Of a stretch of DNA of 38,781 bases, positions 1 to 38,781 are shown piece after piece. A program made the translations under genes and the position numbers. The notes under the pieces were generated by a model. That model did no database searches. It had not been told where the DNA came from and saw only the letters and a list, made by a program, of their open reading frames with translations. The stretch's first letter is position 1, and each line of letters opens with the position of its first letter. Origin of the DNA: a virus; IMG/VR virus record IMGVR_UViG_3300006750_000001, positions 1 to 38,781 of that record; one strand, written 5' to 3'.

Positions 1-123
1 GAAATTGATCCTATGTTGGATGCTGATGGGTTTATCTTAGCTGAAGGGTACGAGCAAGAAGTTGTAACCCATGAAGAAGCTGTTGTAGACTACGTACACT
101 GGCGAGACGTACTCTTTCCGTAC
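1..123. repeat. Left copy of 123-bp terminal direct repeat
   Basis: These bases are identical to 38659-38781. Both copies lie in the same reading frame of the portal gene, and joining the window across them gives one unbroken protein. The simplest reading is an assembly overlap of a circular or circularly permuted genome, not a physical terminal repeat, because natural ends inside portal would split an essential gene. Confidence 0.97.
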
Positions 124-3092: not shown

Positions 3093-4079
3093 ATGTCTTT
3101 TCCTAACATTAGTGATGTTCTTGCTACAACGATCGAAAATCGTAGTAAGAAAATATCTGATAATGTTATGAACAACAACGCAATTTTGAAAAAGCTTGAA
3201 ACGAAAGGTAAAATGAAAACCTTTTCAGGCGGACACAAGATTTTGCAAGAGCTCTCATTTGCTGAAAACGCCAACGCAGGTTGGTATTCAGGATATGATC
3301 TTTTGCCTGTTGGTGCTTCGGACGTTATCAGCGCGGCTGAGTACGAAATTAAGCAAGCGGCTGTTCCTGTAGTTATTTCTGGGTTGGAACAACTCCAGAA
3401 TGCTGGCAAGGAACAAATGATTGACTTGATGGAGGCTCGGCTCGAAGTTGCCGAAACAACGCTTTCTAACCTTATCGTCGACGGTGTGTATTCTGACGGC
3501 ATGACCCCAACTGTCAAGCAAATTGACGGCCTGGACGCCATGATTTCAACCACACCTGCGGTCGGTCAGTACGGAAACATTGATCCGGCATCTTGGGCTT
3601 TCTGGCGGAACTACTACGATACAGCGACCACGACCACTACCGCTAACATCCAGGGTGTCTGGAATACGGCATGGTCTAATCTTGTACGTGGGCAGGACCG
3701 CCCGGACCTTATTATGGTTGATAACCTGGAATGGGTTAAGTACATTAGCTCCCTTCAATTGATCCAACGATTCTCAAGCGCCGAAACTGGTCAGCTTGGG
3801 TTTTCTACGGTGAAGTTCATGGATTCTGATGTTTGCTTAGATGGTGGGGTTTACTTCCCATCAGCCGTGACAGGCGCAACAGGTGCTTCGTCTAATCAGG
3901 CGTACTTCCTGAACTGTAAACACTTGCACTATCGGCCTCATGCTGCTCGTAACATGGTCCCTCTTTCGCCGAATCGTCGTTATGCGACGAACCAAGACGC
4001 GGAAGTCCAGATCATTGCGTGGGCTGGTAATCTTACTTGCTCTGCACGTAAATTGCAGGGTCGTGTAGACGGTTCATAA
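3093..4079 (+). CDS. Major capsid protein
   Basis: A 328-residue protein. The ATG at 3093 is chosen over an in-frame TTG at 3081 because GGAG lies 5-8 bases upstream of it. The N-terminal part (SDVLATTIENRSKK, then NNAILKKL) and the middle QAAVPVVISGLEQLQNAGKE resemble a family of podovirus and siphovirus major capsid proteins with the HK97 fold. The order scaffold, this gene, small accessory gene, terminator supports the role. Residues 270-328 form a Trp- and Arg-rich C-terminal section. It is preceded by its own candidate promoter and followed, after one small gene, by a strong terminator, an arrangement suited to high expression. Confidence 0.9.
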   Translation: MSFPNISDVLATTIENRSKKISDNVMNNNAILKKLETKGKMKTFSGGHKILQELSFAENANAGWYSGYDLLPVGASDVISAAEYEIKQAAVPVVISGLEQLQNAGKEQMIDLMEARLEVAETTLSNLIVDGVYSDGMTPTVKQIDGLDAMISTTPAVGQYGNIDPASWAFWRNYYDTATTTTTANIQGVWNTAWSNLVRGQDRPDLIMVDNLEWVKYISSLQLIQRFSSAETGQLGFSTVKFMDSDVCLDGGVYFPSAVTGATGASSNQAYFLNCKHLHYRPHAARNMVPLSPNRRYATNQDAEVQIIAWAGNLTCSARKLQGRVDGS

Positions 4080-4090
4080 GGAGGATTGTC

Positions 4091-4387
4091 ATGGGTTCTT
4101 TAGTACAGCTTGGGGTTGACGTTACCAAGATATACGACTATTCTGCGGATACAGGTCCCTACCCGTATTCTGAGGGTGATCGGCATATTGCGGCTGATGG
4201 CACTCATTACATCTACACAAAAGCGCATGGAGCGATTGCTGACGGTACTCGTTGCAACGTGCTTGACACTGGTGTGACGAGCGCTAACGCCTCTGGTGTA
4301 TGGGTGAACAATACTGGGACGGCTATGGCGGTCAGTGACCGCTTTTGGGCGCATCAGTATATCGCTTCTAACATCATAACGTTCTAA
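4091..4387 (+). CDS. Small head protein, possible capsid decoration protein
   Basis: A 98-residue protein starting 11 bp after the capsid stop, with an AAGGAGG ribosome binding site overlapping the end of the capsid gene. It is Gly/Ala/Thr-rich with many short beta-prone segments and no membrane or helical stretch. Position between the capsid gene and a terminator suggests co-expression with capsid, as for decoration proteins. No family motif recognised. Confidence 0.7.
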   Translation: MGSLVQLGVDVTKIYDYSADTGPYPYSEGDRHIAADGTHYIYTKAHGAIADGTRCNVLDTGVTSANASGVWVNNTGTAMAVSDRFWAHQYIASNIITF

Positions 4388-4400
4388 CCTAACTGGAGGG

Positions 4401-4425
4401 GAGGGGCTTCGGCCCCTCTCTTTCT
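4401..4425 (+). terminator. Rho-independent terminator after the capsid unit
   Basis: A GAGGGGC stem, TTCG tetraloop and GCCCCTC stem (4401-4418) are followed by a T-rich run TCTTTCT. It lies 14 bp after the small head gene. The stable UUCG-type loop makes it the clearest terminator of the late region. A TATAAT follows at 4425-4430 but no -35 is visible. Confidence 0.9.
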
Positions 4426-4444
4426 ATAATTACGAGAGTACGAT

Positions 4445-5233
4445 ATGTCAGATGAATCCAGAGCTCTAGGTAACCGAGGATTCAATGAACAGGAGGCTGT
4501 GTTCGCCATCCCGTTTAATGATCCTGGCAGGTACGCTATTATTAACCTAGACTTTTTTGAAAAGACGCCTGAATACTATTTATCTGGCGCGCAGGACATT
4601 GGGGTTTTCGGTGACAACACAACGATTACGAGTGTTACTCAGAATTATCTGGGGAATGCGACACTCCCCGGCACTGCTGAACTTGTGACAGGGGCGGACG
4701 ATGGTGACGCGGTTATTATGGCTCCCCGCGAAGTTCTTGGTCTTGGTGTTCCTTGGACTTTTAGGATAAATCGCAACACTAGCTGGATGGTGTCGTTTAA
4801 GTGTTCAGCTTGGGGATCAAATATGAATGTCCAAGCCGGAGGCAAGGCGTCCCCGCTTACGGTTGATCCTTTGGTTATGACAGCGGGTAACGGAGGTCCA
4901 TGTTTCCAAGCGATAGGCAACGCCAATATGAGACTGTTGTGGGGTCTCCAAGGAGAAATAGATATAGACACAGGCGTTGGTAATCCTGGTACTGGTGAAG
5001 TATGGTCGTGGTTCACAGCGTACTATGACGCAGAAACCAGTATTCTAAGGGTATTCGCAGACCGTGCGCTAATTTATGACCAAGTAGTCGCCCCAGAAAT
5101 AGCAGTTGATGATCGGGCTTGGGTATTAGGTGTTCAATCAACAAGTGCGTCCGCCAAAACATTCCGTGTTCAACATTTTGTCATGGCTGTCTCTAAGTAT
5201 CCTCAGCTGACTGTAGAAGGTGTAGGCTTGTAA
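4445..5233 (+). CDS. Beta-rich virion protein, possibly lectin/LamG-like
   Basis: A 262-residue protein of unknown function. The C-terminal third has alternating hydrophobic strands with a segment (WFTAYYDAETSILRVFADRAL) that resembles the strand-turn-strand of LamG/concanavalin-type jelly rolls, where a small solute-exposed loop reads D-G or D-R-A-L. Residues 60-160 are Gly/Thr/Asn-rich. It lies just after the capsid terminator and is followed by a second protein with a clearer LamG-like C-terminus, so the pair may be capsid fibres or surface adhesins. A weak GAGAG ribosome binding site precedes the ATG. Function is inferred only. Confidence 0.65.
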   Translation: MSDESRALGNRGFNEQEAVFAIPFNDPGRYAIINLDFFEKTPEYYLSGAQDIGVFGDNTTITSVTQNYLGNATLPGTAELVTGADDGDAVIMAPREVLGLGVPWTFRINRNTSWMVSFKCSAWGSNMNVQAGGKASPLTVDPLVMTAGNGGPCFQAIGNANMRLLWGLQGEIDIDTGVGNPGTGEVWSWFTAYYDAETSILRVFADRALIYDQVVAPEIAVDDRAWVLGVQSTSASAKTFRVQHFVMAVSKYPQLTVEGVGL

Positions 5234-5245
5234 TAGGGTCTCAAT

Positions 5246-6298
5246 ATGACCGCTTCGTTAAACGACACTATGATGACCGCGATGGGTAATCTGGGATATA
5301 CCAGTAGCACGTTCAACGGTAGATTGTTTGAATGGGCAGAAGGTATGGGCGGAACCGGGGCTACTTTAAGTGAAGTGGTGCAGTCAGCCTTAGACATAAA
5401 AGGTACTCATGCTAGTCGTACTCTTGACGATGCTTGGAACCAAGTTCTAAGTGGGTTTTACGGCGCGACGCTCAATGGGTTTGACCCGCAGACACTAAAC
5501 AACAGAATAAAGTTGTTCTTTGAGCGTGGCGGACAATTAGTGGCTCCGCTGTCGCCTATCACGCAGTACGATGCTTCGACGTGTGTCGACATGACTTTTG
5601 ATATCGCTGGAACAATTCCTGTAGACATTATTATGCGGGACATTGGTACTTGGGGCGATCTGGTGTGTACAGCAGATGACACGACTAGACCACACTGGGG
5701 GGCTAGTGGGATCACGTCACCGGAAAGCGCGGGTGGTGTCTACAAGGATATTAATTCAATAACTGGTGTCTATATGGACGGCACTGTAAACGTTTTACGT
5801 GATTTGTCGTACACAGCACTTAATTCTAATGAAGTCAGTATATATTTTGTCGCTGACCTGGACGGTATGCCTTACAGTAGTGTGATCTGGGGGGTTTGTG
5901 GCGATCTTCAAGGTATGTGGCAGAACGCTAATGGTTGGCAGTTTCTCACTCCTTCTGCTAATGCTCTTCGGTTCTTTCATTCAGCGGGTGCGGACACACT
6001 TACTCTAAATGCCACTGGCATCGCCGTTGGACCTCACTTGTACGAAGTACACATAGATAGTTCGGGTAACGGTGAGATGTTTGTGGACGGAGTGTCCCAA
6101 GACACAGATACATCTACTGTGTCAGTCAAAAACCCTGACATACTAAGTTTTGGAGCTGGTAACTCAGGGGGAGGGGTTAATGTTCCTACAGGCTATTCCA
6201 GAATGCTTATAGGCGAGCTTTTAATGTACGACACAGCTTCTAGTGCGGGTAATAAGACAACGATTAGAAATTACCTGAACACTAAATGGGGTCTTTAA
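5246..6298 (+). CDS. Virion protein with C-terminal LamG/ConA-like domain
   Basis: A 350-residue protein. Residues 1-110 hold short helical repeats of the type LNDTMMTAMGNLGYTSS, RLFEWAEGMG, LDDAWNQVLSGFYGA, a pattern seen in phage structural proteins. Residues about 180-350 look like a LamG/concanavalin A-like sandwich: a strand LYEVHIDSSGNGEMFVDGVS carries the typical strand-D-G hairpin. The end, IGELLMYD followed by a helix and YLNTKWGL, matches the usual close of such domains in bacterial and phage proteins. These domains bind glycans. Its place between capsid and tail genes suggests a head fibre or collar adhesin rather than the main tail fibre (14327). Confidence 0.7.
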   Translation: MTASLNDTMMTAMGNLGYTSSTFNGRLFEWAEGMGGTGATLSEVVQSALDIKGTHASRTLDDAWNQVLSGFYGATLNGFDPQTLNNRIKLFFERGGQLVAPLSPITQYDASTCVDMTFDIAGTIPVDIIMRDIGTWGDLVCTADDTTRPHWGASGITSPESAGGVYKDINSITGVYMDGTVNVLRDLSYTALNSNEVSIYFVADLDGMPYSSVIWGVCGDLQGMWQNANGWQFLTPSANALRFFHSAGADTLTLNATGIAVGPHLYEVHIDSSGNGEMFVDGVSQDTDTSTVSVKNPDILSFGAGNSGGGVNVPTGYSRMLIGELLMYDTASSAGNKTTIRNYLNTKWGL

Positions 6299-6312
6299 TA
6301 AGGAGAAATAAA

Positions 6313-6912
6313 ATGTTACCAGAAGCGGATATGGGTATGACGAATATGGCGATGGACGGACAAATGCGACCAAGACAAGGTGAGCATTACGTTCGCTTCT
6401 TCCATGATGCTGTACAGGATATGGCTAAAACTGAAGAAGAAGGCCGACCGATTTACGAGGACCGTGAGTTTATTGAAATTAGGGCTCCCGGCAATCAAAC
6501 TTCTGTGTTGATTAAAGAAGTCAACGAATACTATAGGGATATGTTTGCCATGCAATATCATGCGTGGAAGCAGGGTGACGAAGAGCAAATTCACGGCACA
6601 CCTCTTAAAGCGTGGCCGATGATAACTGCTTCTCAGGTTAAAGAATTACAGCACTTGGGTATCCTGTCGGTAGAACAACTGGCAGAAGTAGCTGACTCCA
6701 GCGCAGGGGCGTTCATGGGATTTAACACGCTCAAACGTCGTGCTAAATTGTTCCTGGAAGCTGCGGAAGGCAACGCCCCAATGGAAAAGATGTCTGCCCT
6801 ACTTGAGGAACGTGATAATGAAATTGAAGTCTTAAAGCGTAATATGGAAGAGATGGGCAAACGCATCGATGACCTCATGGCTTCACGCGGGGGTGATCAA
6901 GATGAGGACTAA
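6313..6912 (+). CDS. Conserved virion-module protein with coiled-coil C-terminus
   Basis: A 199-residue protein. The ATG at 6313 has AAGGAGA 6-12 bases upstream, so I prefer it to the in-frame ATG at 6286, which would overlap the previous gene. The N-terminus is Met-rich. Residues about 100-155 (ITASQVKELQHLGILSVEQLAEVAD) look like a helix-hairpin-helix-type unit, and residues 165-199 form a charged coiled coil ending in an acidic tail. It directly precedes the tail adaptor gene and may act in head completion. I do not recognise a characterised homologue. Confidence 0.75.
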   Translation: MLPEADMGMTNMAMDGQMRPRQGEHYVRFFHDAVQDMAKTEEEGRPIYEDREFIEIRAPGNQTSVLIKEVNEYYRDMFAMQYHAWKQGDEEQIHGTPLKAWPMITASQVKELQHLGILSVEQLAEVADSSAGAFMGFNTLKRRAKLFLEAAEGNAPMEKMSALLEERDNEIEVLKRNMEEMGKRIDDLMASRGGDQDED

Positions 6913-6914
6913 GC

Positions 6915-7655
6915 ATGGCTGATTTAGAAAGGTACATTACGGCTCAGAAGGCTATTAGTCGCGCAGCCGTTGAAAGTGGTCTGTCTTCTGTTTCGGACCC
7001 TTTTGGATCTACTGACCCAGCGCATAATCAGTTGATAGAGCTCTTGACCTCTGTAGGTCAAGAGCTCTTGTACCTTAATCAATGGCAGTATATGGTTCGT
7101 GAAGAGACGTTTACGACGGTGGTTCCTGGTGACACAGGCGACTATGACCTGCCTACGGACTTTGGTTACATGATCCCGCAAACTGGTTGGGAGCGCACGA
7201 ATAATGTCCCACTGTACGGACCTCTTAGCGCCCAAGACTGGCAGTACCTGAAGGGTCGTGACTTAGTTGACTCTACGATCTACGCATCATTTAGAGTGTC
7301 AGAGAATCAGCTGAAGCTGTACCCGCAGCCTCCTACAGATGGACTAGAAATAGCTTACGAGTATATGTCACGTAACTGGCTCTTGAAGGCAGGTGGTGGC
7401 TACCGCGATTCAGTACAGGCTAACGACGACACGGTACTGTATCAGCCAATTTTAGTCGTGAAGGCGTTGAAACGTGCCTTCTTAGCAGCGCGAGGATTTG
7501 ACACTACCCGCGCTGATGCTGAGTACGAGAAGGCGCTGGACGCGTACATTGGTAATGATGAAAGCGCTCCAATACTGAATGCTGGCACAAATAGCCGTTC
7601 GTTTCCGTACTTACACTCTCGGTACAATACTCCTGATAAAGGGTTCGGGGCATGA
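6915..7655 (+). CDS. Head-tail adaptor / tail tubular protein A-like
   Basis: A 246-residue protein. Residues 35-90 contain the typical sequence order of podovirus adaptor proteins: a long helix with many Leu, then LNQWQYMVREETFTTV, a Gly-Asp turn, and YDLPTDFGYM. Such proteins (T7 gp11 or P22 gp4 type) bind the portal and begin the short tail. The C-terminal half has two helices (VVKALKRAFLAARGF) and ends with an extended Ser/Tyr-rich arm. It starts two bases after the preceding stop and overlaps the next gene by four bases, so it is coupled to the nozzle gene. Confidence 0.75.
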   Translation: MADLERYITAQKAISRAAVESGLSSVSDPFGSTDPAHNQLIELLTSVGQELLYLNQWQYMVREETFTTVVPGDTGDYDLPTDFGYMIPQTGWERTNNVPLYGPLSAQDWQYLKGRDLVDSTIYASFRVSENQLKLYPQPPTDGLEIAYEYMSRNWLLKAGGGYRDSVQANDDTVLYQPILVVKALKRAFLAARGFDTTRADAEYEKALDAYIGNDESAPILNAGTNSRSFPYLHSRYNTPDKGFGA

Positions 7656-15832: not shown

Positions 15833-16069
15833 CTATTCAATATATAGTGGAGTGGAAAATAGTCTAGGAACAGCTTTTCTCTGTTCTTTGACATGGGATT
15901 CTAACACTCCCCTCATGTACCCGGTTATGGAGATGTGCTTCTTTGAAGCGAGCAGCTCTATATCGTGCATTACAGAGTCTGTAATCCTCACGCCTGTTGC
16001 TATCATAACCCCCTCACCCTTGTACAGCACCGGACGTCCACCTCGCGGTGACTTGCTATACTTGCTCAT
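15833..16069 (-). CDS. Ribbon-helix-helix-like DNA-binding protein
   Basis: A 78-residue basic protein. Residues 25-65 (TGVRITDSVMHDIELLASKKHISITGYMRGVLESHV) have the strand-helix-helix pattern of Arc/MetJ-type ribbon-helix-helix proteins: a short alternating strand, a helix ending in a Lys/His turn, the ISITGYMR turn and a second helix. The first 20 residues are Ser/Arg/Gly-rich. The ATG overlaps the preceding stop by four bases. It is the last gene of the early operon and may regulate it; a palindrome at 16495-16516 upstream of the preceding gene is a candidate operator. Confidence 0.65.
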   Translation of the reverse strand: MSKYSKSPRGGRPVLYKGEGVMIATGVRITDSVMHDIELLASKKHISITGYMRGVLESHVKEQRKAVPRLFSTPLYIE

Positions 16070-16344
16070 TGGTCCACGTAAGCCCCAGACGGACCACCCT
16101 CTTCATACTTAGCCTCAGCCTCGCTGATAACGTACTCAGCCTCAGCGACTTCAATGTACTTGTTTATGGCGTGACGAGCTTTGTACAGGTCTTCAAGCCT
16201 ACCTTTGTCACGCCATCGTTCTACCCATTTAGTGATGATGTACTGGAAATTGTCGTACTTCAAACGGTACGCTCTATCCCAGTGCTCTTCCCCTCCCACC
16301 TTATAGTGGTCCCCGCCTACTTGTGTCTTGTTAGCTTTACTCAT
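16066..16344 (-). CDS. DUF3310 protein (T7 gp1.7-like nucleotide kinase family)
   Basis: A 92-residue protein. The ATG at 16344 is set by a GGGAGAAG ribosome binding site; longer frames upstream are not supported. Residues 9-15 VGGDHYK, then HWD (21-23), FQYIITKWVERWRDKG and EDLYKARHAI (51-60) are the hallmark order of DUF3310. T7 gp1.7 of this broad family has been reported to phosphorylate dTMP and dGMP. Placed beside a thymidylate synthase homologue and an HD nucleotidase, it may phosphorylate a modified pyrimidine monophosphate, but this is inference and the family has no visible P-loop here. Confidence 0.8.
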   Translation of the reverse strand: MSKANKTQVGGDHYKVGGEEHWDRAYRLKYDNFQYIITKWVERWRDKGRLEDLYKARHAINKYIEVAEAEYVISEAEAKYEEGGPSGAYVDQ

Positions 16345-16494
16345 TATCTTCTCCCTGTTGCAGAATAAGTACCGGGTGCGAAGGTTTACGTCCCCCGGTG
16401 GACGGTGTAGGTAGGCTCGGTGATGAGATAACTTCACCTCGCCCCCGTAGACCCAGACCCCCGCTGCTATTAGTCTACGAGTATTAACATTCAA

Positions 16495-16516
16495 TGTGAC
16501 AATATACAGTGTCACA
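16495..16516. promoter_or_regulatory. Operator-like inverted repeat upstream of the DUF3310 and RHH genes
   Basis: TGTGACA (16495-16501) and TGTCACA (16510-16516) are exact inverted copies separated by eight A+T-rich bases. It lies in a 242-bp gap (16345-16586) with no gene on either strand, the largest gap of the modification block. A two-turn dyad of this kind fits a dimeric regulator. The downstream RHH protein (15833) is the natural candidate for autoregulation. No convincing -35/-10 pair was found around it. Confidence 0.5.
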
Positions 16517-16586
16517 ATGGCGCGTACAGTGCATATCTGTAAAACCGGCAACGCCTAACTACCCGTAATTGCTCTGTGGTGCGTCT

Positions 16587-16835
16587 TTAGTCACTAGGCT
16601 GATGTTCAATAGCCGTAGTCGTCATAACCAGAGCTTCCCGCGAGAGTGAATCAGCGATAGCCTTGCTAGACTTAACGATTTCACCACTCACCACTTCTAT
16701 CACGCGGTAGCTGAGCTCTTCACTGAGCCTGAGTTCTGTGGAACCATATGCGCCGTCAATACGTACTCGTGTGACGTACTGGCCTTCGTCGGGTCCGTAC
16801 GTTGAGCGTGTTATGTTGATACTGTTCACAATCAT
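16587..16835 (-). CDS. Hypothetical protein in the modification block
   Basis: An 82-residue protein with an AAGGAGAAAAG ribosome binding site; its ATG shares a base with the stop of the HD gene (TAATG), so the two are co-translated. The first 50 residues alternate in beta fashion (YVTRVRIDGAYGSTELRLSEELSYRVIEVV) and the last 30 are helical. No family recognised. The context suggests a role in nucleotide or base modification, or in regulation, without direct evidence. Confidence 0.7.
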   Translation of the reverse strand: MIVNSINITRSTYGPDEGQYVTRVRIDGAYGSTELRLSEELSYRVIEVVSGEIVKSSKAIADSLSREALVMTTTAIEHQPSD

Positions 16836-17374
16836 TACTTTTCTCCTTTACTACACAATAGCTCATTATACCACTTTGAAATAAAGACGCGTAGGGTATC
16901 CGCACGAACGTGTCGTAACGGGTTTTCATCCATGTAAGCCATCCCGTTTTCCAGCACAGAGCGGATGCCCCGGTTTCCCATTTGCATTTCTTCTAAGCAC
17001 CAGAAAATTAGGTCCAAAGTATCTGCAAATTTAAGCATATGTTGTTCTTCTTCAGTAAGCTCTTTCCAGCACGTCCCGTAGTTTCTATGGAACTCCCGCT
17101 CCAAAGTATCCAAAGCTTCTTTGACTACTTCGTCTAACCGCTTAATCGGGGCTGGCATATCACCAGTATGGACCTCAGGTAGGTCGTGGTTTAGAGCTGC
17201 GGTTATCAGCCGGGTGCGCGGGTTGGGGTCTATGTGCAGGATTATCTGCGCTACGTTGAAGCTATGCTCCGCGATAGACTGCTTACGTATTGTCCTCCAC
17301 GTGTGATATCTCGTCACTTCCCCCGCCATCCGTAGATACTCCAGGTTTTGTACGTCTATTGATCCATTCTTCAC
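16835..17374 (-). CDS. HD-domain 5'-deoxynucleotidase, YfbR-like
   Basis: A 179-residue protein. The metal-binding HD pattern is complete: His37 (IAEHS), His63-Asp64 (ALNHDLPEVHTGDMPAP) and Asp118 (KFADTLDLI). R22-Y23 takes the place of the Arg-Trp pair that YfbR uses for deoxynucleotide monophosphates. YfbR-type enzymes dephosphorylate dNMPs. The GTG start at 17374 is used because it restores the N-terminal helix before R22 and has GGAG eight bases upstream; it overlaps the thymidylate synthase homologue by 92 bases. In phages that replace thymine, a dTMP-removing enzyme lowers normal dTTP, and that is the likely role here. Confidence 0.8.
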   Translation of the reverse strand: MKNGSIDVQNLEYLRMAGEVTRYHTWRTIRKQSIAEHSFNVAQIILHIDPNPRTRLITAALNHDLPEVHTGDMPAPIKRLDEVVKEALDTLEREFHRNYGTCWKELTEEEQHMLKFADTLDLIFWCLEEMQMGNRGIRSVLENGMAYMDENPLRHVRADTLRVFISKWYNELLCSKGEK

Positions 17375-18311
17375 AAGCTAGTCTCCAGTCTGAGTTTTGA
17401 GGCATTCGGTTTAGTAGAGACACGTGCGGTAGTCCTTCCTTACGTGCGTGATATATCCTAGACATAGGGTACGCTATTTTGTCCATCCACCATGTTGTGA
17501 ACTTCATACCTCCTTTGCATAGTAATTCAGCGTCGGCAACCAGCATATGATAAGTTTCGTCATTTGCGAGTAGCGGAACAGGCTTTACATCCGCCATGTA
17601 ATAGTGGTCTAGGGGAACGCCCCTTGTTCTAATGTTATCGTAGTGCGGCACTAGATCAGGGTAGATATGAAGGTTGTTGGACATTACGTAGTACGTTCCA
17701 ATTACGTACGAGGCAGCTGAAGCTACAAGTTCGTGGAGCATTGTCATGTGTACTATGTTCGCGCCCATAGACCCCCATATTAAATCATTGGACCTGTTGC
17801 ACACAGTCATATCCAGCGACCCGTCGGGTTTTGGTCTAAAATAGATGTGAGTGTTGCATGGTCTATCCTTGCTGTCGTGTAGGGGACTGTCATAAGACGC
17901 GTCCCACATAGCCAGAACAGCTTGTCGTGTACTGCGGTCATTACGCAGTTGAGTTATGATCCTTTCTATTTGGTCATGGTTCCAATGTGTGCGCCAGCGG
18001 TATCCATACGCCCCTCTTAAGATCCCGTCTTGGGCGTATGTCTCCATGTTACTGTTGAAGTACGATATCCAGTTAGAGTCTCTACGACCTGCCATCATCC
18101 ACACAAACTCCATAACGTGGAAGAACGGATTCGCGTCGCGTAGTGGATTGAACACTACGCGCTCCGTAGGGAATAGCAGCTTAAAGACCGCTGGTTCTGG
18201 GAGCGTTATCACCCTGCCGTTGCGACTAAGCTCCTCCGTCCCATAGATGTGCAGTTTCCACAGCCCTTCTACTAGAGCGTTGTCTGCGTTTGATGATATG
18301 ACTGTATGCAT
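17283..18311 (-). CDS. Thymidylate synthase homologue (TS or dUMP hydroxymethylase)
   Basis: A 342-residue protein of the TS/pyrimidine hydroxymethylase superfamily. The nucleophile is Cys152 in DRPCNTHIYF, the phosphate-binding arginines lie in NDRSTRQAV (126-129), and CNRSNDLIWGSMGAN (171-184) aligns with the QRSxDxxLGxPFN motif, ending in Asn184. Asn at this place selects a uracil base; dCMP hydroxymethylases carry Asp. The loop before Asn is one residue longer than in classical TS. YYVMSNNLHIY matches the final sugar-binding motif. The ATG at 18311, eight bases after the previous stop, is preferred over an in-frame start at 18425. Neighbours suggest it makes 5-hydroxymethyl-dUMP; ordinary TS activity is the alternative. 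Confidence 0.85.
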   Translation of the reverse strand: MHTVISSNADNALVEGLWKLHIYGTEELSRNGRVITLPEPAVFKLLFPTERVVFNPLRDANPFFHVMEFVWMMAGRRDSNWISYFNSNMETYAQDGILRGAYGYRWRTHWNHDQIERIITQLRNDRSTRQAVLAMWDASYDSPLHDSKDRPCNTHIYFRPKPDGSLDMTVCNRSNDLIWGSMGANIVHMTMLHELVASAASYVIGTYYVMSNNLHIYPDLVPHYDNIRTRGVPLDHYYMADVKPVPLLANDETYHMLVADAELLCKGGMKFTTWWMDKIAYPMSRIYHARKEGLPHVSLLNRMPQNSDWRLACEEWINRRTKPGVSTDGGGSDEISHVEDNT

Positions 18312-18318
18312 AATTCTA

Positions 18319-19164
18319 TTATACCCCAGGATATTTACGTTTACTGTGTCCGGTGCCGAAAAGGACGCGCATATACTTGTCGTACTCACATAGACAGTTC
18401 TGTATGTCTTGGCAGTGTATGACACCTACGTCGTTGAATACACCATCTAAGTGAAGGTGATCTTCTACCTCACATAGTCTAGGCATGAAATGACATTTCG
18501 CAACCTTCTCACCAAAGAACCAGCGCATCCCACGTAGACTTCCGGGGCCGGGAGCTGCCCATGTCCACCAGTCTTCAGCTGTCGCTAAAGGATGGCTGAC
18601 CGTGTTCTTAAAGTCCGCTATAACCTGCGCCGCCATAAAGTCGCTAAACCCATGGAGCTGCTTTAGAGCCGCGTGGGCATCTCTTAAAGTGGTAGGTAGG
18701 TTACCCCACCGTGGGTAGTTATAGACATCTCTACAGGTGTCTACAAGCCATGTAATTTTGTCTATTTTCCTGCCGTGGGTTGTTACCACGTAAGCTCCAC
18801 CCCAGACTTTAATCTTGTTGTCACGCGCTTGACAAAGCAGATACTCCATATGCGACCAGTTCTTCGCAACTACAGAAGACTTAATCATTTCAAGAGTTTT
18901 CGGCCAATTTATCAGCCGAGCGATGCACATTGAAGCTTCGTAGTCTGCCCTACTGTCAAAGTCTTTAGGGGTCCAGTTTTCACGTATCCACTTAGTGACA
19001 CGGTCATCTTCACGACGTACATTACAGAAGAACGTCTGCCGGAACACCCAGTCATCAGTCCAAGGTTTGTCAACCCCATCTGCTCGCTGTTTACGTATGT
19101 CTTCACGTTCTCGTATCCAGTAACAGAATATATCTTTAGGATGCGTCAGTTGTGAGATATTCAT
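18319..19164 (-). CDS. aGPT-PPlase / 5-hmdU DNA kinase helical-domain family protein
   Basis: A 281-residue mostly helical protein. Residues 40-60 hold FRQTFFCNVRREDDRVTKWI, the family signature (F-R..N-x-x-R-x-x-D-R-V). Residues 150-185 (an LKQLHGFSDFMAAQVIADF segment) and GPGSLRG at 206-212 match the later part of the alpha-glutamyl/putrescinyl-thymine pyrophosphorylase and HMUDK helical families, which share a DNA-glycosylase-like HhH fold. In phages phiW-14, SP10, ViI and M6, such proteins take part in activating or substituting 5-hydroxymethyluracil in DNA. It overlaps the kinase gene by 29 bases, so the two products probably act together. Which exact step it performs cannot be told from sequence. 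Confidence 0.75.
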   Translation of the reverse strand: MNISQLTHPKDIFCYWIREREDIRKQRADGVDKPWTDDWVFRQTFFCNVRREDDRVTKWIRENWTPKDFDSRADYEASMCIARLINWPKTLEMIKSSVVAKNWSHMEYLLCQARDNKIKVWGGAYVVTTHGRKIDKITWLVDTCRDVYNYPRWGNLPTTLRDAHAALKQLHGFSDFMAAQVIADFKNTVSHPLATAEDWWTWAAPGPGSLRGMRWFFGEKVAKCHFMPRLCEVEDHLHLDGVFNDVGVIHCQDIQNCLCEYDKYMRVLFGTGHSKRKYPGV

Positions 19165-19738
19165 TTACAAGACTCCTTATGTGATACATTGTAGCTTCGT
19201 ACGGGTCATCATGAGGTATGTCCACCATAGGGTGCTTTCCAAGGTATTGTCTGAGTCGGCACTTGGCAACTCTATCATGATCCTTAATGACATTGCGAGC
19301 GTTAAACTCTTTAGTAACGCCCCGTTCTTTACGGCGAGCTTCTATACGGTGGATGCACACGGATAACGGAGTGTCTAAGAACCCTGTCATAGCTCTGCTT
19401 CCGTACTGTTCCATGGTCTTACCTACGCTGCCGAAGCTGTGTGAGATAAGCAGACCTTCAAAGAACAAGATACCGGGCTTCATCTCTTCCATCATCGTAA
19501 GTTTTATGAGCTCCGGTATCCTATAATAGGGCTGGATAGTGTCACACCCACCGTTCTGGTTCTTGTAAGACCCCAGTATCGTTATAGGGACATCGTATAA
19601 TTCGCCTCTGTATGTGCGTATCTTACCATTGCTGTCCACCATATCTGGCTCAGCCCTAGAAGCTTCCAAAATTTTACGAGCCACCCAAGTCTTACCGCTA
19701 CCGTTCGTACCCCTGAGGTTAAACGCTACAGTTTCCAT
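19136..19738 (-). CDS. P-loop kinase, candidate 5-hydroxymethyluracil DNA kinase
   Basis: A 200-residue protein with a Walker A motif GTNGSGKT at residues 10-17 straight after the first strand, and a hydrophobic strand ending in acid (GILFFEGLLIS, about residues 89-99) as Walker B. Residues 120-150 (CIHRIEARRKERGV) resemble the Arg-rich lid of deoxynucleoside/nucleotide kinases. Genes of this type lie next to or are fused to the helical family in thymidine-hypermodifying phages, where they phosphorylate 5-hmdU within DNA. GGAG is placed eight bases before the ATG, directly after the T run of an intrinsic terminator (19752-19782). A free-nucleotide kinase remains possible. Confidence 0.75.
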   Translation of the reverse strand: METVAFNLRGTNGSGKTWVARKILEASRAEPDMVDSNGKIRTYRGELYDVPITILGSYKNQNGGCDTIQPYYRIPELIKLTMMEEMKPGILFFEGLLISHSFGSVGKTMEQYGSRAMTGFLDTPLSVCIHRIEARRKERGVTKEFNARNVIKDHDRVAKCRLRQYLGKHPMVDIPHDDPYEATMYHIRSLVNEYLTTDAS

Positions 19739-19751
19739 TTCAATTCTCCAA

Positions 19752-19782
19752 GAAAAAGGGAGCCCCCTTTCGGAGGCTCCCT
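19752..19782 (-). terminator. Rho-independent terminator between the replication and modification blocks
   Basis: On the - strand AGGGAGCC, a 10-base loop and GGCTCCCT are followed by TTTTTCTT. It stops transcripts coming from the 120-residue basic protein gene. Only about 13 bases separate it from the kinase ATG, so no new promoter fits; the modification genes would depend on read-through or an internal promoter. Confidence 0.9.
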
Positions 19783-19803
19783 GAGGGGAGGGATTTATTA
19801 TTG

Positions 19804-20166
19804 TTATGCAGCCGACTTAACGTCAGTCTTCTCTTTACCGGACAACTGGACGGGGTATTCTTTCCCATCAGCATGGACCAGCTTAATAAGACCTCGTCGT
19901 GACATAACACGAATTCCGTGACGGCTTCCACCCGCTTTCGCATAGTCAGCGTAGGTCTTGGATTTCTGAGCAATCTCCCAATCAGCCTGAACTTCCCGCT
20001 TAACATTAGGGGTTTCTTTCTGGCACAGGATCTTGGCTTCCGGCGTAATGCCGTAGTCCCATTTCCGTGGTCGCGGTGCTCCCTTGTCTTTAGGTTCCAG
20101 GTTCTTACCTGCTGGTTTTGTGGCTTGTCCGCCATCATGTTTGGCGGATCCCTTTGGTGCTGCCAT
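19804..20166 (-). CDS. Basic protein of the replication block, unknown function
   Basis: A 120-residue, Lys/Ala/Gly-rich basic protein. The ATG at 20166 follows AAGGAGA; a start at 20184 is less likely. Residues 1-40 are disordered and positively charged, and residues 75-105 (YADYAKAGGSRHGIRVMSRRGLIKLV) look like a small folded core. It overlaps the helicase end by 32 bases and is followed by a strong terminator. Charge and place suggest nucleic acid binding, perhaps as a helicase partner; no family recognised. Confidence 0.7.
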   Translation of the reverse strand: MAAPKGSAKHDGGQATKPAGKNLEPKDKGAPRPRKWDYGITPEAKILCQKETPNVKREVQADWEIAQKSKTYADYAKAGGSRHGIRVMSRRGLIKLVHADGKEYPVQLSGKEKTDVKSAA

Positions 20167-21568
20167 GTTCTTTCTCCTTAGCATAGACAGATTTTAATGC
20201 ACTTAGAAGGTTAGATTGAGTTCTATCCTTTCCCCTAAGCACTCCTAGCACTACTTCATCTATAGTATCTTTACAGACTAAATAGTGAATAACTACGTGT
20301 TCGTTAGGATTCCCCTGACGCCATACACGTTTTAATCCTTGGTCGTTTAGTTCTAAGTCCCATGTTGGACCGAAGAACGCTACGTGGTTACTTATTTCTT
20401 GTAGATTTAGACCATGCCCTGCACTTGCAGGATGAGCTAATAGTACAGGCAAATCGCCCATATTAAAAGACTGACAGAGTGAACCACTACGGTCAGCTGA
20501 TACTCCGCCACCTATGTACGGTACTTCATACCCAAGGGCTTCACGTATCCGCGTAATGTCATGTTTCCATTGGTAAAAGACTAGTAGCGGCTTACCACTT
20601 AGCTCCTCAATTAGATCTTTAAGAGCTTCCAGCTTTGCATCGTGAGCCATAACTACATCACCGTCAGGTGTGTACACAGCTCCGTTAGTCAACTGGCGAA
20701 GTTTAGTGCTCGCGGCAGCGGCGTTGACCGCCGTGACCTCCTCACCTTTTATTACAGATATGAACGCTACTTCTAACTCACGGTAGTAACGCTTCGCCAC
20801 TTCAGGCATTTCTACCTTGATTACGTTAATGTGGAGCGTTGGCATATCCAACCAGTCTTTAGCATCCATACGTAACAGCAGATGATGTACTTTATCTAAG
20901 ATAGCTTCGTAGCTGCCAGTTCTAGGGGTCCAGTCATAACCTGAGTAGCTCTGGTCAAAGTATTTATTTCGGAAATGCGAAACGTAACGCCCCAACGCGA
21001 CCCCGCAGTCTAGAATATATATCTGCCCGAAAATGTCCATTATTCCGTTGGGGATTGGACTGCCAGTTAATATATATCTTCTCTGAAACGATGCCAGCCA
21101 TTTCTTTATTAGTTTGAACCGGGCTGTCGATGTTCGTTTGAATTTGGTTGATTCGTCTATCACAAGCATCTCGCAATGCGACAAGAAACGTGTATTCTCT
21201 TTTGTCAACAGCCATTTCAGTCCCTCCGGGTTGATTAAGTACACATCATGGGGTGTGCGCAGTATCTTGTCTTTGTGTTTGCCGTGAAGTAGCCCAAAGT
21301 CTATATTGTTGAAGTCAGACCACTTCTCAGCCTCCTGACGCCAGACGTAATAGCACACACGGAGCGGGGCCACGATCAGCATACTGTTGACAACACCTTT
21401 GTCCTGCAGCACTTTGAACGTAGACAGTATGATACTGGTTTTGCCCATGCCGGGGTCTAGAAATAGTCCAGCCGCGCCCCGCTCTATACAGAACTTAACA
21501 GCTTTGAACTGGTAAGTGTGCGGTGTCCATTTCTTTGCACGGGGTGTGCTTTCAAGAAACTGCGACAT
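20135..21568 (-). CDS. SNF2-type superfamily 2 helicase
   Basis: A 477-residue protein with the full SF2 motif series: a Q-like TPHTYQFKAV (15-24), Walker A DPGMGKTS (38-45), motif Ia LIVAPLRVC, motif II IDES (137-140), motif III TGSPIPNG, motif V around HGLNLQE and motif VI QGLKRVWRQGN. The order and the DEST/TGSP variants place it with SNF2-like phage helicases. It probably translocates on double-stranded DNA during replication or recombination. It overlaps the VRR-NUC gene by 17 bases, and an SNF2-like helicase beside a VRR-NUC nuclease is a frequent phage pairing. Confidence 0.9.
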   Translation of the reverse strand: MSQFLESTPRAKKWTPHTYQFKAVKFCIERGAAGLFLDPGMGKTSIILSTFKVLQDKGVVNSMLIVAPLRVCYYVWRQEAEKWSDFNNIDFGLLHGKHKDKILRTPHDVYLINPEGLKWLLTKENTRFLSHCEMLVIDESTKFKRTSTARFKLIKKWLASFQRRYILTGSPIPNGIMDIFGQIYILDCGVALGRYVSHFRNKYFDQSYSGYDWTPRTGSYEAILDKVHHLLLRMDAKDWLDMPTLHINVIKVEMPEVAKRYYRELEVAFISVIKGEEVTAVNAAAASTKLRQLTNGAVYTPDGDVVMAHDAKLEALKDLIEELSGKPLLVFYQWKHDITRIREALGYEVPYIGGGVSADRSGSLCQSFNMGDLPVLLAHPASAGHGLNLQEISNHVAFFGPTWDLELNDQGLKRVWRQGNPNEHVVIHYLVCKDTIDEVVLGVLRGKDRTQSNLLSALKSVYAKEKEHGSTKGIRQT

Positions 21569-21854
21569 CTAAATACCCCTGTAGGATTTTGATTGCATCA
21601 TGTTTGTTATCACAATTATATATGTGGAACCCTCTCGTTGCAAGTATCCGCTGCGAAGCAACTTGGGAGGCGCGAGGTTTTTTACCTGTAGCCTTGAACT
21701 CTATGAACACTAACTGTCCGTTAGGAAATACGAACACCCGGTCAGGGAAGCCTATCCATCCTGGGATAGTGGGCTTCCAAGCCCAGATATCATACTTCTT
21801 AGCCCAACGAACAACCGACCGCTCAATGGAACGTTCGCTTACCCGTTCTGACAT
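21552..21854 (-). CDS. VRR-NUC domain nuclease
   Basis: A 100-residue protein. The ATG at 21854 follows AAAAGGCGG and makes the product the usual size for stand-alone VRR-NUC proteins. SERSIERSVVRWAKKY forms the first helix. GFPDRVFVFPNGQLVFIEFKATG carries the catalytic Asp, then Glu-x-Lys of the PD-(D/E)XK fold. SQVASQRIL and GFHIYNCDN finish the domain. Members of this family cut Holliday-junction-like or flap structures. It lies between the helicase and the Cas4-like nuclease with overlaps on both sides, so the three probably process replication intermediates together. Confidence 0.9.
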   Translation of the reverse strand: MSERVSERSIERSVVRWAKKYDIWAWKPTIPGWIGFPDRVFVFPNGQLVFIEFKATGKKPRASQVASQRILATRGFHIYNCDNKHDAIKILQGYLDVAVS

Positions 21855-22516
21855 GGTCCGCCTTTTGATTTTGAGTAGCTGCACCAACGACAATGGCTGC
21901 CTGGACTTTCTGCGAATACGTCGTCCGCCAAGACGCGGTCCCATCTCTTCGCCCATATCTCTGTAAGCCTCTCTAAGTCCGCTTCGCGTGTGAAGTTCAT
22001 ACCTTGCTGAAATCCGTGATCTATATACAACATTCGCGTATCTATGACTTCTAGATCAGGGTTGTAGTGGAACCCTGTTAGAGCGTAGAGCTCCTGTTGA
22101 TCTTGGTGCTCCGGGTACTCTTTACCAGATTTATGATCTACAATAAGACCGTAATTGTCCCGCACACCAAAGTAGTCGTACACCGCTCTCATGAATACTG
22201 TAGGGTCAAAGAAATCCACGACCTTCCAATACTTATCAAACGCGGCTCGCATTTCTGTTTCAAAGCTGTCACACTCTTGTGTTAGACCTAGCAACGCCGA
22301 CCCTATCTTCTGCAACGCTGGTGGACACGGCTTGTCTGGGTCGTTAAGGTAATCTTCAGCTAACGTGTGTAGATGTGCTCCTCTAGACGTAGCGTAGTTA
22401 CCACCGTCTGGAAGTTTGTCTATGTGCTTGTGCTTGGCTTGTCTAGGACACTTTTCCCAACCTTTGATGCGGCTGAAACTCAGTTGTGTTATTCGTGGTT
22501 TAGATATAAAGTTCAT
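21839..22516 (-). CDS. Cas4/RecB-like PD-(D/E)XK exonuclease
   Basis: A 225-residue protein. The N-terminus LSFSRIKGWEKCPRQAKHKH (with Cys22) and RGAHLHTLAEDYL are standard for the family. The active site is DHKSGK (Asp...Asp-x-Lys pattern) followed by QQELYAL. Four cysteines (Cys22 and the C-terminal CRWC...GGPC group) could hold an Fe-S cluster as in AddB/Cas4. It would degrade or resect DNA ends in replication and recombination, or degrade host DNA. Its ATG overlaps the polymerase stop by four bases. Confidence 0.85.
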   Translation of the reverse strand: MNFISKPRITQLSFSRIKGWEKCPRQAKHKHIDKLPDGGNYATSRGAHLHTLAEDYLNDPDKPCPPALQKIGSALLGLTQECDSFETEMRAAFDKYWKVVDFFDPTVFMRAVYDYFGVRDNYGLIVDHKSGKEYPEHQDQQELYALTGFHYNPDLEVIDTRMLYIDHGFQQGMNFTREADLERLTEIWAKRWDRVLADDVFAESPGSHCRWCSYSKSKGGPCQNG

Positions 22517-24306
22517 TTGTCGGCCTCCAGCCAGTTGCTTCCAGTGTACCCTGAGGATTTAAGTGTTACGTCGCACTTCACAGCTTCCATACACTCGCGC
22601 ATAATTTTATGTTCAGCCGCTGCGTCAGCTTCGGGTACTGATGCGTTTAGTTCATCGTACACCTGAGCTCTTAGTAGCCCGGTATTCTTAGCTTGATCGT
22701 AGTATATCATAGCTTCTTTAGTGGCGTCTCCGGCGCTGCCTTGGATTAAGTGGTTCAATAGTTTGTAGGCGAAACTCCGGCCGTCAACTGACGTCTCAGC
22801 AAATATTATCCTACCGCCGAGTGTTCGCACTGGTAGACCAGCGTTGCCTCTATTCTTAACATCCAACATCAACTCCCTAACGTCCGGTAACGCGCCAAGA
22901 TAATTGTCCTTAATCATCTTACCTTCGTAGTACGGGACACCTAGTTTCGCGGCTAAGTTCTTGACACCTGAACCATACAGCAAGCTGAATGCTGTGCGCT
23001 TGATGGGCTTACGGTCATACCTGTGAGCCGTCAACTCAAAGATTAAGTCCGCCGCCCACTGGTGAGGATCTAGGTTTGGGTCTTCCAAATACTGACGCAT
23101 GAGACTGCCGTTTTCATAGTGCGCTAGTATTCGCACCTCTTGGCTGTCATAGTCACGTTTAATCCACTTATGCCCAATTTCAGGGAGTAAGTACTCACGC
23201 ATGAACGGCAAGGGGGGAAGCCAGTCAGGTGTGGCAAACTCATATTCGTTAGGTACGTTAGTCAGGTTGGGTTTAGTGGAGCTTACACGTCCAGTGCGAG
23301 TACCGTAGCCATCGTCACCTCTAGTCTGATGCCACGTAGTGTGCAGCCTACCGTCGCCGTTGGTTGCGAAGCCAATCCATGGGCTGTAGAACGTGCTTAG
23401 AGTAGTTCTAAGCGCGCCCCGGTACTTTAGCAGTGCCAACATTTCAGGGTGGTCTACGGCACTCTCAAGGTTTTCCTTTGACGTACTATCCTTGCCCGTT
23501 GGTGTCTTAGGCCACTCACCTGAACATAGCCCAGCGTTCTGTATCGCCGGAACAAGCTGCGCAGGTTTACCAACTTCGATCTCTGTTCCCAGTATTTTGC
23601 AAATAGCATCATCTGCATCGTTGAACGCTTTCTGGTAAATTTCGTAATCCTGTTCCAGCTTTTCAATGTTGACACGCAGACCTTCACGTTCCACCTCCAG
23701 TAAGATAGGCATCAGCTTACGTTCTCGGTTGTACGCGTCCATCATTCCATTCTCTACGATGTACGGCACAAAGAAGTTGAATAACCCATGAGTACGATCT
23801 ACGTCACCAATCGCGTATTCACCAACTAAGTCCCCGGGAGCTTCTGCTATGTGTGCGCCCCAAGGGTTCTTTTTCTTGTTGATGCCCGGTATATTCTGCT
23901 CTATCCATTCCTTGAGCCTGTCACGCTCTTCCGGAGGCCAATCTAGCAGGTCTTCAGCGAGGGGCTTTAAGGATATCTGCCTAGCGTGTGGATTGTACAG
24001 ATAAGCAAGCAACTGAGTGCAGTGCCATCCGTTCCACTTGGGTATAGGTAGATCAAAGTGTACTTCCCCAACATCAAGGTCAAACTTACCGTTGTGGAAT
24101 ATAGGGTCCAAATCCCACAACTTTTCTATGACGTCGTACGCCTCCTGTTTCGTACTGTTGTTTTCACACGGATGTCCCCACCCGTAATACTGACTACCAC
24201 CTTCTGGGAACCGCACCGCGACACCTACTGGTCGCGGTGGGTACTCAGGCCGATTATCTATTGCTTCTGTTTCAAAGTCAACAGTGGGGTGTAGAATATC
24301 CCCCAC
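22513..24306 (-). CDS. DNA polymerase I family (family A) with 3'-5' exonuclease
   Basis: A 597-residue replicative polymerase. The exonuclease residues are in place: Asp10/Glu12 (DFETE), Asn72-x3-Asp76 (FHNGKFD) and Tyr164...Asp168 (EYAIGD). The 5' nuclease domain is absent. Polymerase motif A is RDYDSQEVRIL (Asp385; Glu390 and Arg392 kept), motif B is RKPIKRTAFSLLYGSG with Phe440 at the site corresponding to E. coli Phe762, and motif C is QVYDELN, with Tyr550 where almost all family A enzymes have His. It likely copies the phage genome with 5-hmdUTP or dTTP opposite A. Phe at the 762 site is linked to virulent rather than temperate phages. Confidence 0.95.
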   Translation of the reverse strand: MGDILHPTVDFETEAIDNRPEYPPRPVGVAVRFPEGGSQYYGWGHPCENNSTKQEAYDVIEKLWDLDPIFHNGKFDLDVGEVHFDLPIPKWNGWHCTQLLAYLYNPHARQISLKPLAEDLLDWPPEERDRLKEWIEQNIPGINKKKNPWGAHIAEAPGDLVGEYAIGDVDRTHGLFNFFVPYIVENGMMDAYNRERKLMPILLEVEREGLRVNIEKLEQDYEIYQKAFNDADDAICKILGTEIEVGKPAQLVPAIQNAGLCSGEWPKTPTGKDSTSKENLESAVDHPEMLALLKYRGALRTTLSTFYSPWIGFATNGDGRLHTTWHQTRGDDGYGTRTGRVSSTKPNLTNVPNEYEFATPDWLPPLPFMREYLLPEIGHKWIKRDYDSQEVRILAHYENGSLMRQYLEDPNLDPHQWAADLIFELTAHRYDRKPIKRTAFSLLYGSGVKNLAAKLGVPYYEGKMIKDNYLGALPDVRELMLDVKNRGNAGLPVRTLGGRIIFAETSVDGRSFAYKLLNHLIQGSAGDATKEAMIYYDQAKNTGLLRAQVYDELNASVPEADAAAEHKIMRECMEAVKCDVTLKSSGYTGSNWLEADK

Positions 24307-33181: not shown

Positions 33182-33466
33182 ATGCCAACAGATATTTCTA
33201 ACAGGTTCTTGAGTGTGGAGATAATAATCCCGTTTATTATACTCGCTGTAGGGGGACTGATAAGCTACGGCAGTCTGTCCTCTGACGTTGAGCATAAGGC
33301 GGGGAAACTGCAGGTGGAGGTCATCCAAACGCAGTTAGATAACATAGCGTCTGATGTTTCCGAGAATAAGGAGGCAATAGACGACACTAACGACACAGTG
33401 GACCGTAACCACGACATTCTAATACGGCTTGAAACGTTACTCATGAGCGAGGATGAGTCGCGGTGA
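33182..33466 (+). CDS. Membrane-anchored coiled-coil protein, possible i-spanin
   Basis: A 94-residue protein. The ATG at 33182 is preferred to the overlapping GTG at 33179. A short cytoplasmic start is followed by one transmembrane segment (residues about 13-30, VEIIIPFIILAVGGLIS) and a long acidic coiled coil (QVEVIQTQLDNIASDVSENKE). This type II topology and the site after the holin resemble inner-membrane spanins (Rz-like). No lipoprotein partner (Rz1 with a lipobox) was found in or beside it, so the role is not certain. Confidence 0.6.
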   Translation: MPTDISNRFLSVEIIIPFIILAVGGLISYGSLSSDVEHKAGKLQVEVIQTQLDNIASDVSENKEAIDDTNDTVDRNHDILIRLETLLMSEDESR

Positions 33467-38208: not shown

Positions 38209-38781
38209 ATGGCTCACAGTGGTAGTATTCAGTCTAGCGAAGACTATAAAGACACGCCAAGCGACCAGTACAAGAGATGGTCGCTAGAACTAAGCACATC
38301 ACAGGATAATCTACGAGAATACCATAAGTCGGCCAATAAAGTCGTAAAACGGTTCTTGGATGATCGGGACACTAAAGGAACGGAATTCTTTCGTCTAAAC
38401 TTGTTCCACTCTAGCGTTACGACCCTGCGGTCTATGTTATTTGGCAAGACTCCTAGAATTGATGTGTCACGTAGATACGCCGATGCGAACGACGACGTAG
38501 CTCGTGTTTCTGCTGTGATCTTGCAGCGGCTACTGAACAACGACGTAGAAGAGCAAGGTGACGCGTTTAACTGCGTCCTGCGTCAGTCTTTAGATGACAG
38601 GTTAATCCCTGGACTGGGTTTGGCTAGAGTTCGGTACGAACTTCAGACTGAGACAGAAGAAATTGATCCTATGTTGGATGCTGATGGGTTTATCTTAGCT
38701 GAAGGGTACGAGCAAGAAGTTGTAACCCATGAAGAAGCTGTTGTAGACTACGTACACTGGCGAGACGTACTCTTTCCGTAC
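38209..38781 (+). CDS. Portal protein, N-terminal part (continues at position 1)
   Basis: The ATG at 38209 has GAGGA seven bases upstream and lies one base after the terminase stop. It encodes MAHSGSIQSSEDY and the first 191 codons, the last 41 of which repeat the start of the window. Base 38671 is in the same frame as base 13, so the protein continues without break into 1-1632. The N-terminal part contains helical KANKVVKRFL-type and LRSMLFGKTPRIDVS regions common in podovirus portals. Confidence 0.85.
   Translation, partial: MAHSGSIQSSEDYKDTPSDQYKRWSLELSTSQDNLREYHKSANKVVKRFLDDRDTKGTEFFRLNLFHSSVTTLRSMLFGKTPRIDVSRRYADANDDVARVSAVILQRLLNNDVEEQGDAFNCVLRQSLDDRLIPGLGLARVRYELQTETEEIDPMLDADGFILAEGYEQEVVTHEEAVVDYVHWRDVLFPY
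38659..38781. repeat. Right copy of 123-bp terminal direct repeat
   Basis: Identical to 1-123. It shows that the contig closes on itself; the unique genome is 38,658 bp. Confidence 0.97.

Follow-up and report, generated by a model that had tools for sequence, protein, structure and literature searches.

A compact locus predicted to phosphorylate 5-hydroxymethyluracil in a podovirus-like phage, and a helical protein that may serve exchangeable writers

What does a small phage make of its DNA if it encodes a 5-hydroxymethyl-deoxyuridine (5-hmdU) DNA kinase and lacks the transferase that acts after it in M6-type phages? This question is raised by a minus-strand locus at positions 16066-19738 of the viral record IMGVR_UViG_3300006750_000001, the whole 38,781-nucleotide stretch of which is referred to here as the window. 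An earlier sequence-only reading had proposed that this gene set makes 5-hydroxymethyl-dUMP (5-hmdUMP), incorporates it and decorates it in DNA in the manner of M6-type phages. Our analysis upholds the first part: this small podovirus-like phage has a 5-hmdU-forming enzyme of the thymidylate synthase (TS) family along with a 5-hmdU DNA kinase, and both have homologues in M6, phiW-14 and SP10. The decoration is not borne out, as the amino acid:DNA transferase (ADDT), which attaches the substituent, is absent from the complete genome. Of the M6 pathway the window has the opening part but not the one that attaches an amino acid, and we lean modestly towards a short route of thymine replacement with phosphorylated 5-hydroxymethyl-dU as its end product, the chemistry of which we infer. 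The locus comprises the following genes:

19136..19738, minus strand: P-loop catalytic subunit of the 5-hmdU DNA kinase (HMUDK), the predicted writer, 200 amino acids (PF18748, Walker A, AlphaFold2 model)
18319..19164, minus strand: helical partner HMUDK_hel (aGPT-PPlase clade 1; HEL below), 281 amino acids (PF18723, AlphaFold2 model)
17283..18311, minus strand: predicted TS-family dUMP 5-hydroxymethylase, 342 amino acids (PF00303, PHROG 5131, signature residues)
16835..17374, minus strand: HD-domain 5'-deoxynucleotidase (YfbR-like), 179 amino acids (PF12917; likeness to M6 gp59)
16587..16835, minus strand: open reading frame (ORF) of 82 amino acids between the HD and DUF3310-like genes (no family match in Pfam and PHROG scans)
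16066..16344, minus strand: DUF3310-like protein, 92 amino acids, start MSKANKTQVGGDHY (PHROG 5839; likeness to Rhizobium phage TM26)

A similar gene set and order recurs in M6, SN1, Pam3, Sonora, Ab18 and dozens of metagenomic phages, and the locus is thus not due to chance. The P-loop kinase recognized by eye in the sequence-only reading is a member of the expected family, with the Walker A motif GTNGSGKT at residues 10-17 and a match to PF18748 (HMUDK_HMUD1) whose 42.6 bits exceed the cut-off of 27; E94-G95, R135 and R136 are conserved besides Walker A, and its AlphaFold2 model (pLDDT 93.8) displays an adenylate/thymidylate-kinase-like fold. The adjacent HEL gene, which overlaps that of the kinase by 29 bp, encodes the NVRREDDRV and GPGSLRG motifs that had led to its assignment to the helical family, and profile searches place the 281-residue product squarely inside HMUDK_hel/aGPT-PPlase clade 1 (PF18723, 127 bits, E 8.8e-37). 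The Pfam name of this family, to which M6 gp55 also belongs, is the helical domain of 5-hmdU DNA kinase. We also considered HEL itself as a decorating transferase and rejected it: the M6-type transferase constitutes the separate ADDT family, aGPT-PPlase clade 2.

In the pathway that we favor, the TS homologue would convert dUMP to 5-hmdUMP, as its signature residues and kinship suggest, the HD nucleotidase would reduce the competing dTMP pool, and the phage family A polymerase would incorporate 5-hmdUTP. The P-loop protein and HEL would then jointly phosphorylate 5-hmdU in DNA, a function taken from the M6-type kinase family; in the likely division of labor HEL, the modelled fold of which bears a weak likeness to base-flipping DNA glycosylases, would bind DNA and present the base, and the P-loop protein would transfer phosphate from ATP. 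The (pyro)phosphorylated base would be the end product and would itself block restriction. Such a short pathway is the best prediction because no ADDT is encoded. In SP8 DNA, 5hmdU is a known substrate of a 5hmdU DNA kinase, the action of which makes the DNA more resistant to restriction enzymes, with the resistant sites being TG/TC-rich (PMC7653180, PMC6449724). Moreover, a phosphate-bearing base can persist in DNA, since a phiW-14 mutant accumulates pyrophosphoryl-hmU (PMC5977210).

How firm, then, is the absence of ADDT? The two ends of the record match exactly:

1..123 (left copy) and 38659-38781 (right copy), no strand: direct terminal repeat of 123 bp

This repeat shows the genome to be complete, with a size of about 38.66 kb. 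ADDT (PF18724), the family of the M6 transferase gp51, is present in all eight reference phages scanned whole; it was absent from the window genome by the Pfam model, by a custom profile of 16 diverse members and by an extended profile in the most sensitive (--max) mode, which gave a best E-value of 1.4. Among the scanned window ORFs, pyridoxal phosphate (PLP), radical SAM and Nmad5 partners were not detected, nor were flavin or acetyltransferase tailoring enzymes apart from one weak GNAT at 9252. As a candidate tailoring acetyltransferase this GNAT was discarded: it lies in the virion gene block and is probably outside the modification pathway, because it is conserved in relatives without the kinase, namely Stenotrophomonas phage BUCT555 and a sister phage, G002. 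A second genome, G001 (locus L007, 43,795 bp), has the kinase, is complete by a 127-bp terminal repeat and likewise yielded no ADDT; a terminal repeat was sought in three other kinase records and not found. When whole kinase records were searched, no ADDT turned up in L007, L055, L073, L077, L079 and L091, nor was it found in several kinase records of a second set of 80 loci, which was anchored on the kinase instead of HEL. The only genes common to G001 and the window are Snf2, VRR, kinase, HEL, TS, HD and DUF3310; as the two complete genomes have no unknown gene in common, there is no candidate for a replacement transferase.

These observations bear most directly on the alternative that survives best, standard M6-type hypermodification, in which the phosphate is a leaving group and an unrecognized phage enzyme or a host amine finishes a thymidine that bears an amino acid or an amine. 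The pathways of M6, ViI and phiW-14 pass through a phosphate or pyrophosphate intermediate (PMC6449724, PMC5977210), and ADDT accompanies the kinase in 16 of the 80 kinase-anchored loci, a number that rises to about 22 with the extended profile. Nevertheless, the window has no ADDT-like ORF at a useful E-value, its GNAT is kept in kinase-free relatives, and nothing unassigned outside the known set is shared with G001. We consider this alternative unlikely.

The favored pathway, ending at phosphorylation, has several points weighing against it. Phosphorylated 5-hmdU templates are poorly transcribed by the E. coli RNA polymerase in vitro (PMC6457204), which needs an answer if the phosphate is final, and the phosphate could still be converted further, by a transferase that is non-homologous or by a nucleophile of the host. 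Just two kinase-without-ADDT records, the window and G001, are demonstrated to be complete; elsewhere the absence is less firm than in the window, because the genome search missed a divergent ADDT in G057 (locus L125) that was caught by hmmsearch. The likeness of HEL to helix-hairpin-helix DNA glycosylases is not significant, its model having MjOgg, DUF2419 and MutY as top PDB matches in Foldseek with E-values of 0.56 or higher; hence, its base-presenting role is a reasonable guess from structural models and not a result. Comparison of HEL with endonuclease III (Nth) by hhalign was likewise not significant. Finally, the HD protein is missing from the sister phage G002 and is thus not essential to the module.

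To what extent is HEL tied to the kinase? From viral contigs we gathered the 80 loci closest to the helical family and scored their neighborhoods with profiles made in this analysis. A TS homologue lies near HEL in all 80, and the slot before HEL is usually occupied by a kinase or a glycosyltransferase. A wider census of 91 loci, with copies from the window itself, reference phages and a few near-duplicates among them, gave 31 loci with a kinase, 56 with a glycosyltransferase, four assigned to neither and none with both. The 56 comprise 44 with TAGT (PF20691) and 12 with other glycosyltransferase-like proteins (c14 and c34, of which c34 has weak Pfam support for this designation and c14 none); in L039, L040, L051 and L054 the glycosyltransferase gene is not adjacent to HEL and lies 5-7 kb from it. 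ADDT was seen in kinase loci and in one reference locus without an assigned partner (L011), and in none of the glycosyltransferase loci. The kinase-anchored set tells the same from the other side, with HEL in 76, TS in 68 and a glycosyltransferase in none of the 80 loci. The TAGT of locus L014, used as a single-protein query against the viral contigs, matched nothing but itself. In some loci (L044, 9006-9992; L056, 8270-9232; L085; L087) radical SAM/SPASM proteins adjoin TAGT or GT-B-like genes and HEL, and it is possible that they tailor the sugar or the base further.

A tree of the helical protein (76 rows, with the labels of L011, L070 and L085 set by hand) places the window HEL inside an 18-row group (SH-aLRT 97) in which all other rows are glycosyltransferase-partnered; the row closest to it is the TAGT-partnered L014, at 49-50% identity. 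The tree requires at least nine changes between kinase and glycosyltransferase, which is a best-tree figure because many inner branches are weak and only four independent starred pairs are available; all four of these pairs point in the expected direction in a sign test, too few for significance. Monophyly of all kinase-partnered rows was rejected (p-AU 1e-5).

The L014 locus belongs to the sister phage G002 (40.0 kb), which has the same gene order as the window and resembles it in the terminase (66% identity), capsid (61%), portal (46%), polymerase (43%), Snf2 (47%) and TS homologue (48%). In G002 a TAGT occupies the position of the window's kinase, and no kinase was found in the whole record. 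The cultured Brevibacterium phage LuckyBarnes (L095, NC_047851) encodes at 3607-7622 a TS homologue, two TAGTs and an HMUDK_hel (230 bits), and its whole genome likewise yielded no kinase. Its glycosyltransferases are annotated as beta-glucosyl-HMC-alpha-glucosyltransferases, yet its TS homologue has the uracil-type Asn. MW202897 (L008) combines at 19222-21520 a TAGT, a uracil-type hydroxymethylase and an HD protein, and no HEL was detected in the fetched half of this genome; in some phages, then, TAGT may not need HEL.

Given the gene order, with a kinase or a glycosyltransferase but never both, and the helical tree, HEL appears to be a common module for handling 5-hmdU, used by writers that are exchangeable. 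In the relatives, the same HEL and hydroxymethylase would work with a glycosyltransferase instead of the kinase, as gene order and tree suggest. In its full form this idea is more tentative than the pathway itself, and we put it forward with somewhat less than even confidence: HEL would be a partner-independent presenter of 5-hmdU for P-loop kinase, TAGT or GT-B-like writers, the kinase-only phages ending at phosphomethyl- or pyrophosphomethyl-deoxyuridine and their sisters bearing glycosylated, base-J-like 5-hmdU. The AlphaFold2 model of HEL (pLDDT 94.4) superimposes on viral models of the phiW-14 and SP10 HMUDK_hel with TM-scores of 0.75-0.78 (0.78 for phiW-14 C9DG43). It also has a significant structural match to an ADDT protein model in BFVD (E 8e-4), which makes a common fold of HEL and ADDT likely at the level of models; sequence comparison of the two by hhalign gave no signal.

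Two further architectures concern HEL and the kinase. Aeromonas phage 31 ORF233c (L096, 25184-27571, minus strand) encodes a 795-residue protein whose C-terminal part is HEL-like (PF18723, 17 bits; Foldseek E 0.02) and whose N-terminal part matched no family; it is possibly a natural fusion of HEL with another writer. In locus L086 (1114-2231) a tandem pair of P-loop kinase genes precedes HEL, and these might provide the mono- and pyrophosphate steps.

The association of kinase and HEL also helps to judge a different proposal, that the kinase is a nucleotide kinase acting from 5-hmdUMP to 5-hmdUDP and that the phage DNA simply carries 5-hmdU like that of SPO1 or SP8. The adenylate/thymidylate-kinase-like fold would suit such a role, as would a weak PHROG thymidylate kinase match. 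However, the match to the HMUDK family exceeds its cut-off, the gene is tied to HEL in 76 of 80 loci, the SP10 5-hmdU DNA kinase of 637 residues contains a HEL-like part, and the glycosyltransferases that replace the kinase are unable to supply a nucleotide kinase step. We regard this proposal as improbable.

Does the TS homologue in fact make 5-hmdUMP? The open frame reaches 18425 (17283-18425, minus strand), with the ATG at 18311 as the likely start of the 342-residue product. It matches PF00303 (69 bits) and PHROG 5131 "thymidylate synthase" (307 bits), and the family assignment and Cys152 of the sequence-only reading stand; the equivalent of E. coli Asn177 is residue 185 and not, as had been stated, 184. 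An Asp three positions before the catalytic Cys (Cys190 in the open frame) is present in 92 of 92 phage homologues, in place of the Leu of E. coli ThyA; the structural study of T4 dCMP hydroxymethylase identified Asp/Glu at this site as a hydroxymethylation signature (PMC6400193). The other element of that signature is a Ser located two residues ahead of the conserved Tyr, and the window protein, which reads GAY here, lacks it. Uracil specificity is indicated by the Asn that all 91 scorable homologues keep at the E. coli 177 site (Asn223 in the open frame), as Asp instead of Asn at this position is the dCMP determinant and is found in the T4 dCMP enzyme (PMC6400193). Further, the ThyA C-terminal tail is missing, and among solved structures the CMP 5-hydroxymethylase 5b6d (E 5.5e-15) is the closest, ranking above every thymidylate synthase. 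Scores against the NCBIfam TS equivalog models fall far short of the cut-offs (57.8 bits against 174.55 for the best; 57.3 against 327). Trp80 of ThyA was not used as a marker: it is missing in 92 of 92 homologues, but T4 dCMP hydroxymethylase keeps the corresponding Trp82 (PMC6400193). By inference from these sequence features, namely the Asp signature, Asn177, the lost tail, the nearest structure and the low equivalog scores, the TS homologue is a dUMP 5-hydroxymethylase. That it is instead an ordinary thymidylate synthase boosting dTTP supply, with the kinase/HEL pair acting elsewhere or being a remnant, is very improbable: the Pfam and PHROG labels and the conserved Cys and Asn177 would allow it, but the hydroxymethylase features just listed and its constant place beside HEL in well over 100 loci contradict it.

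Of the remaining genes, the YfbR-like HD nucleotidase was correctly recognized from the letters (78 bits to PF12917); it has 31% identity to M6 gp59 in an equivalent position, and is predicted to drain dTMP or related nucleotides. The DUF3310 label fared less evenly: Pfam and NCBIfam gave no match, but the protein matches PHROG 5839 (E 4e-12) and is 32% identical to a Rhizobium phage TM26 protein annotated as DUF3310, which makes the assignment plausible.

Upstream of the locus lie a small gene and the replication module (20135..24306), the latter assigned by Pfam:

19804..20184, minus strand: Lys/Pro-rich protein, 126 amino acids (44% to its counterpart in the kinase locus L055; gene order)
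20135-21568, minus strand: Snf2 helicase
21552-21956, minus strand: VRR-NUC-like
21839-22516, minus strand: PD-(D/E)XK nuclease
22513-24306, minus strand: family A DNA polymerase

The order of the module is the same in G002, and many related phages have a small gene resembling that of the Lys/Pro-rich protein in the interval from Snf2 helicase to writer. The window capsid protein is 59% identical to that of BUCT555 and 55% to that of Myxococcus phage Mx8; both relatives are podoviruses, and the window phage is presumably podovirus-like as well. Where the window has its modification genes, BUCT555 (L009, 24077-25487) encodes a PurZ-like adenylosuccinate synthetase together with a DUF550 protein and an HD-like match, a combination suggestive of a 2-aminoadenine (Z-DNA) cassette. 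Elsewhere in the window (33463-36879, plus strand), a 1138-residue protein without a PHROG match lies beside the endolysin and terminase genes and has two weak internal twin-arginine signal-like stretches (Pfam TAT_signal, E 0.016).

If these readings are true, a helical protein family now named merely as a part of a kinase would have a general role, and two kinds of phage DNA are predicted. One would carry a terminal phosphate-bearing base, which to our knowledge has so far been met solely as an intermediate or as the product of in vitro reactions; the other would contain glycosylated 5-hydroxymethyluracil, the chemistry of base J. In the literature searched we found no earlier statement that kinase and glycosyltransferase exclude each other, that they are exchanged on the tree or that there is a kinase-without-ADDT class; parts of this may stand in Iyer 2013 and Lee 2018 and 2022.

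Thymidine hypermodification clusters themselves are already known, as is the podoviral pair of TS and aGPT-PPlase1 (PMC9599517). The M6 cluster gp51-gp59 resembles the window in its order of kinase (gp54), HMUDK_hel (gp55), TS homologue (gp58) and HD protein (gp59), with identities of 37-39% for TS and 30% for HEL; it differs in having ADDT (gp51), a PLP enzyme (gp52), a radical SAM protein (gp53) and Nmad5 (gp56), a set associated with the 5-(2-aminoethyl)dU of M6. HTVC023P-type pelagiphage podoviruses also have TS beside aGPT-PPlase1 (that is, HMUDK_hel), near polA and sometimes with a 5'-deoxynucleotidase, a pair interpreted there as M6-like; unlike in the window, the partner, where one is named, is a glucosyltransferase, and the portions covered do not discuss a 5-hmdU kinase, the missing ADDT or an exchange of writers (PMC9599517). 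The TAGT phages G002, LuckyBarnes and MW202897 share with the window the same hydroxymethylase type (Asp signature and Asn), and the first two also HEL, whereas in all three TAGT replaces the kinase, which is missing from each of the records. In SP10, lastly, the 5-hmdU DNA kinase F8WQ30 is one 637-residue chain according to its BFVD entry, whereas the window encodes its kinase and HEL in two genes.

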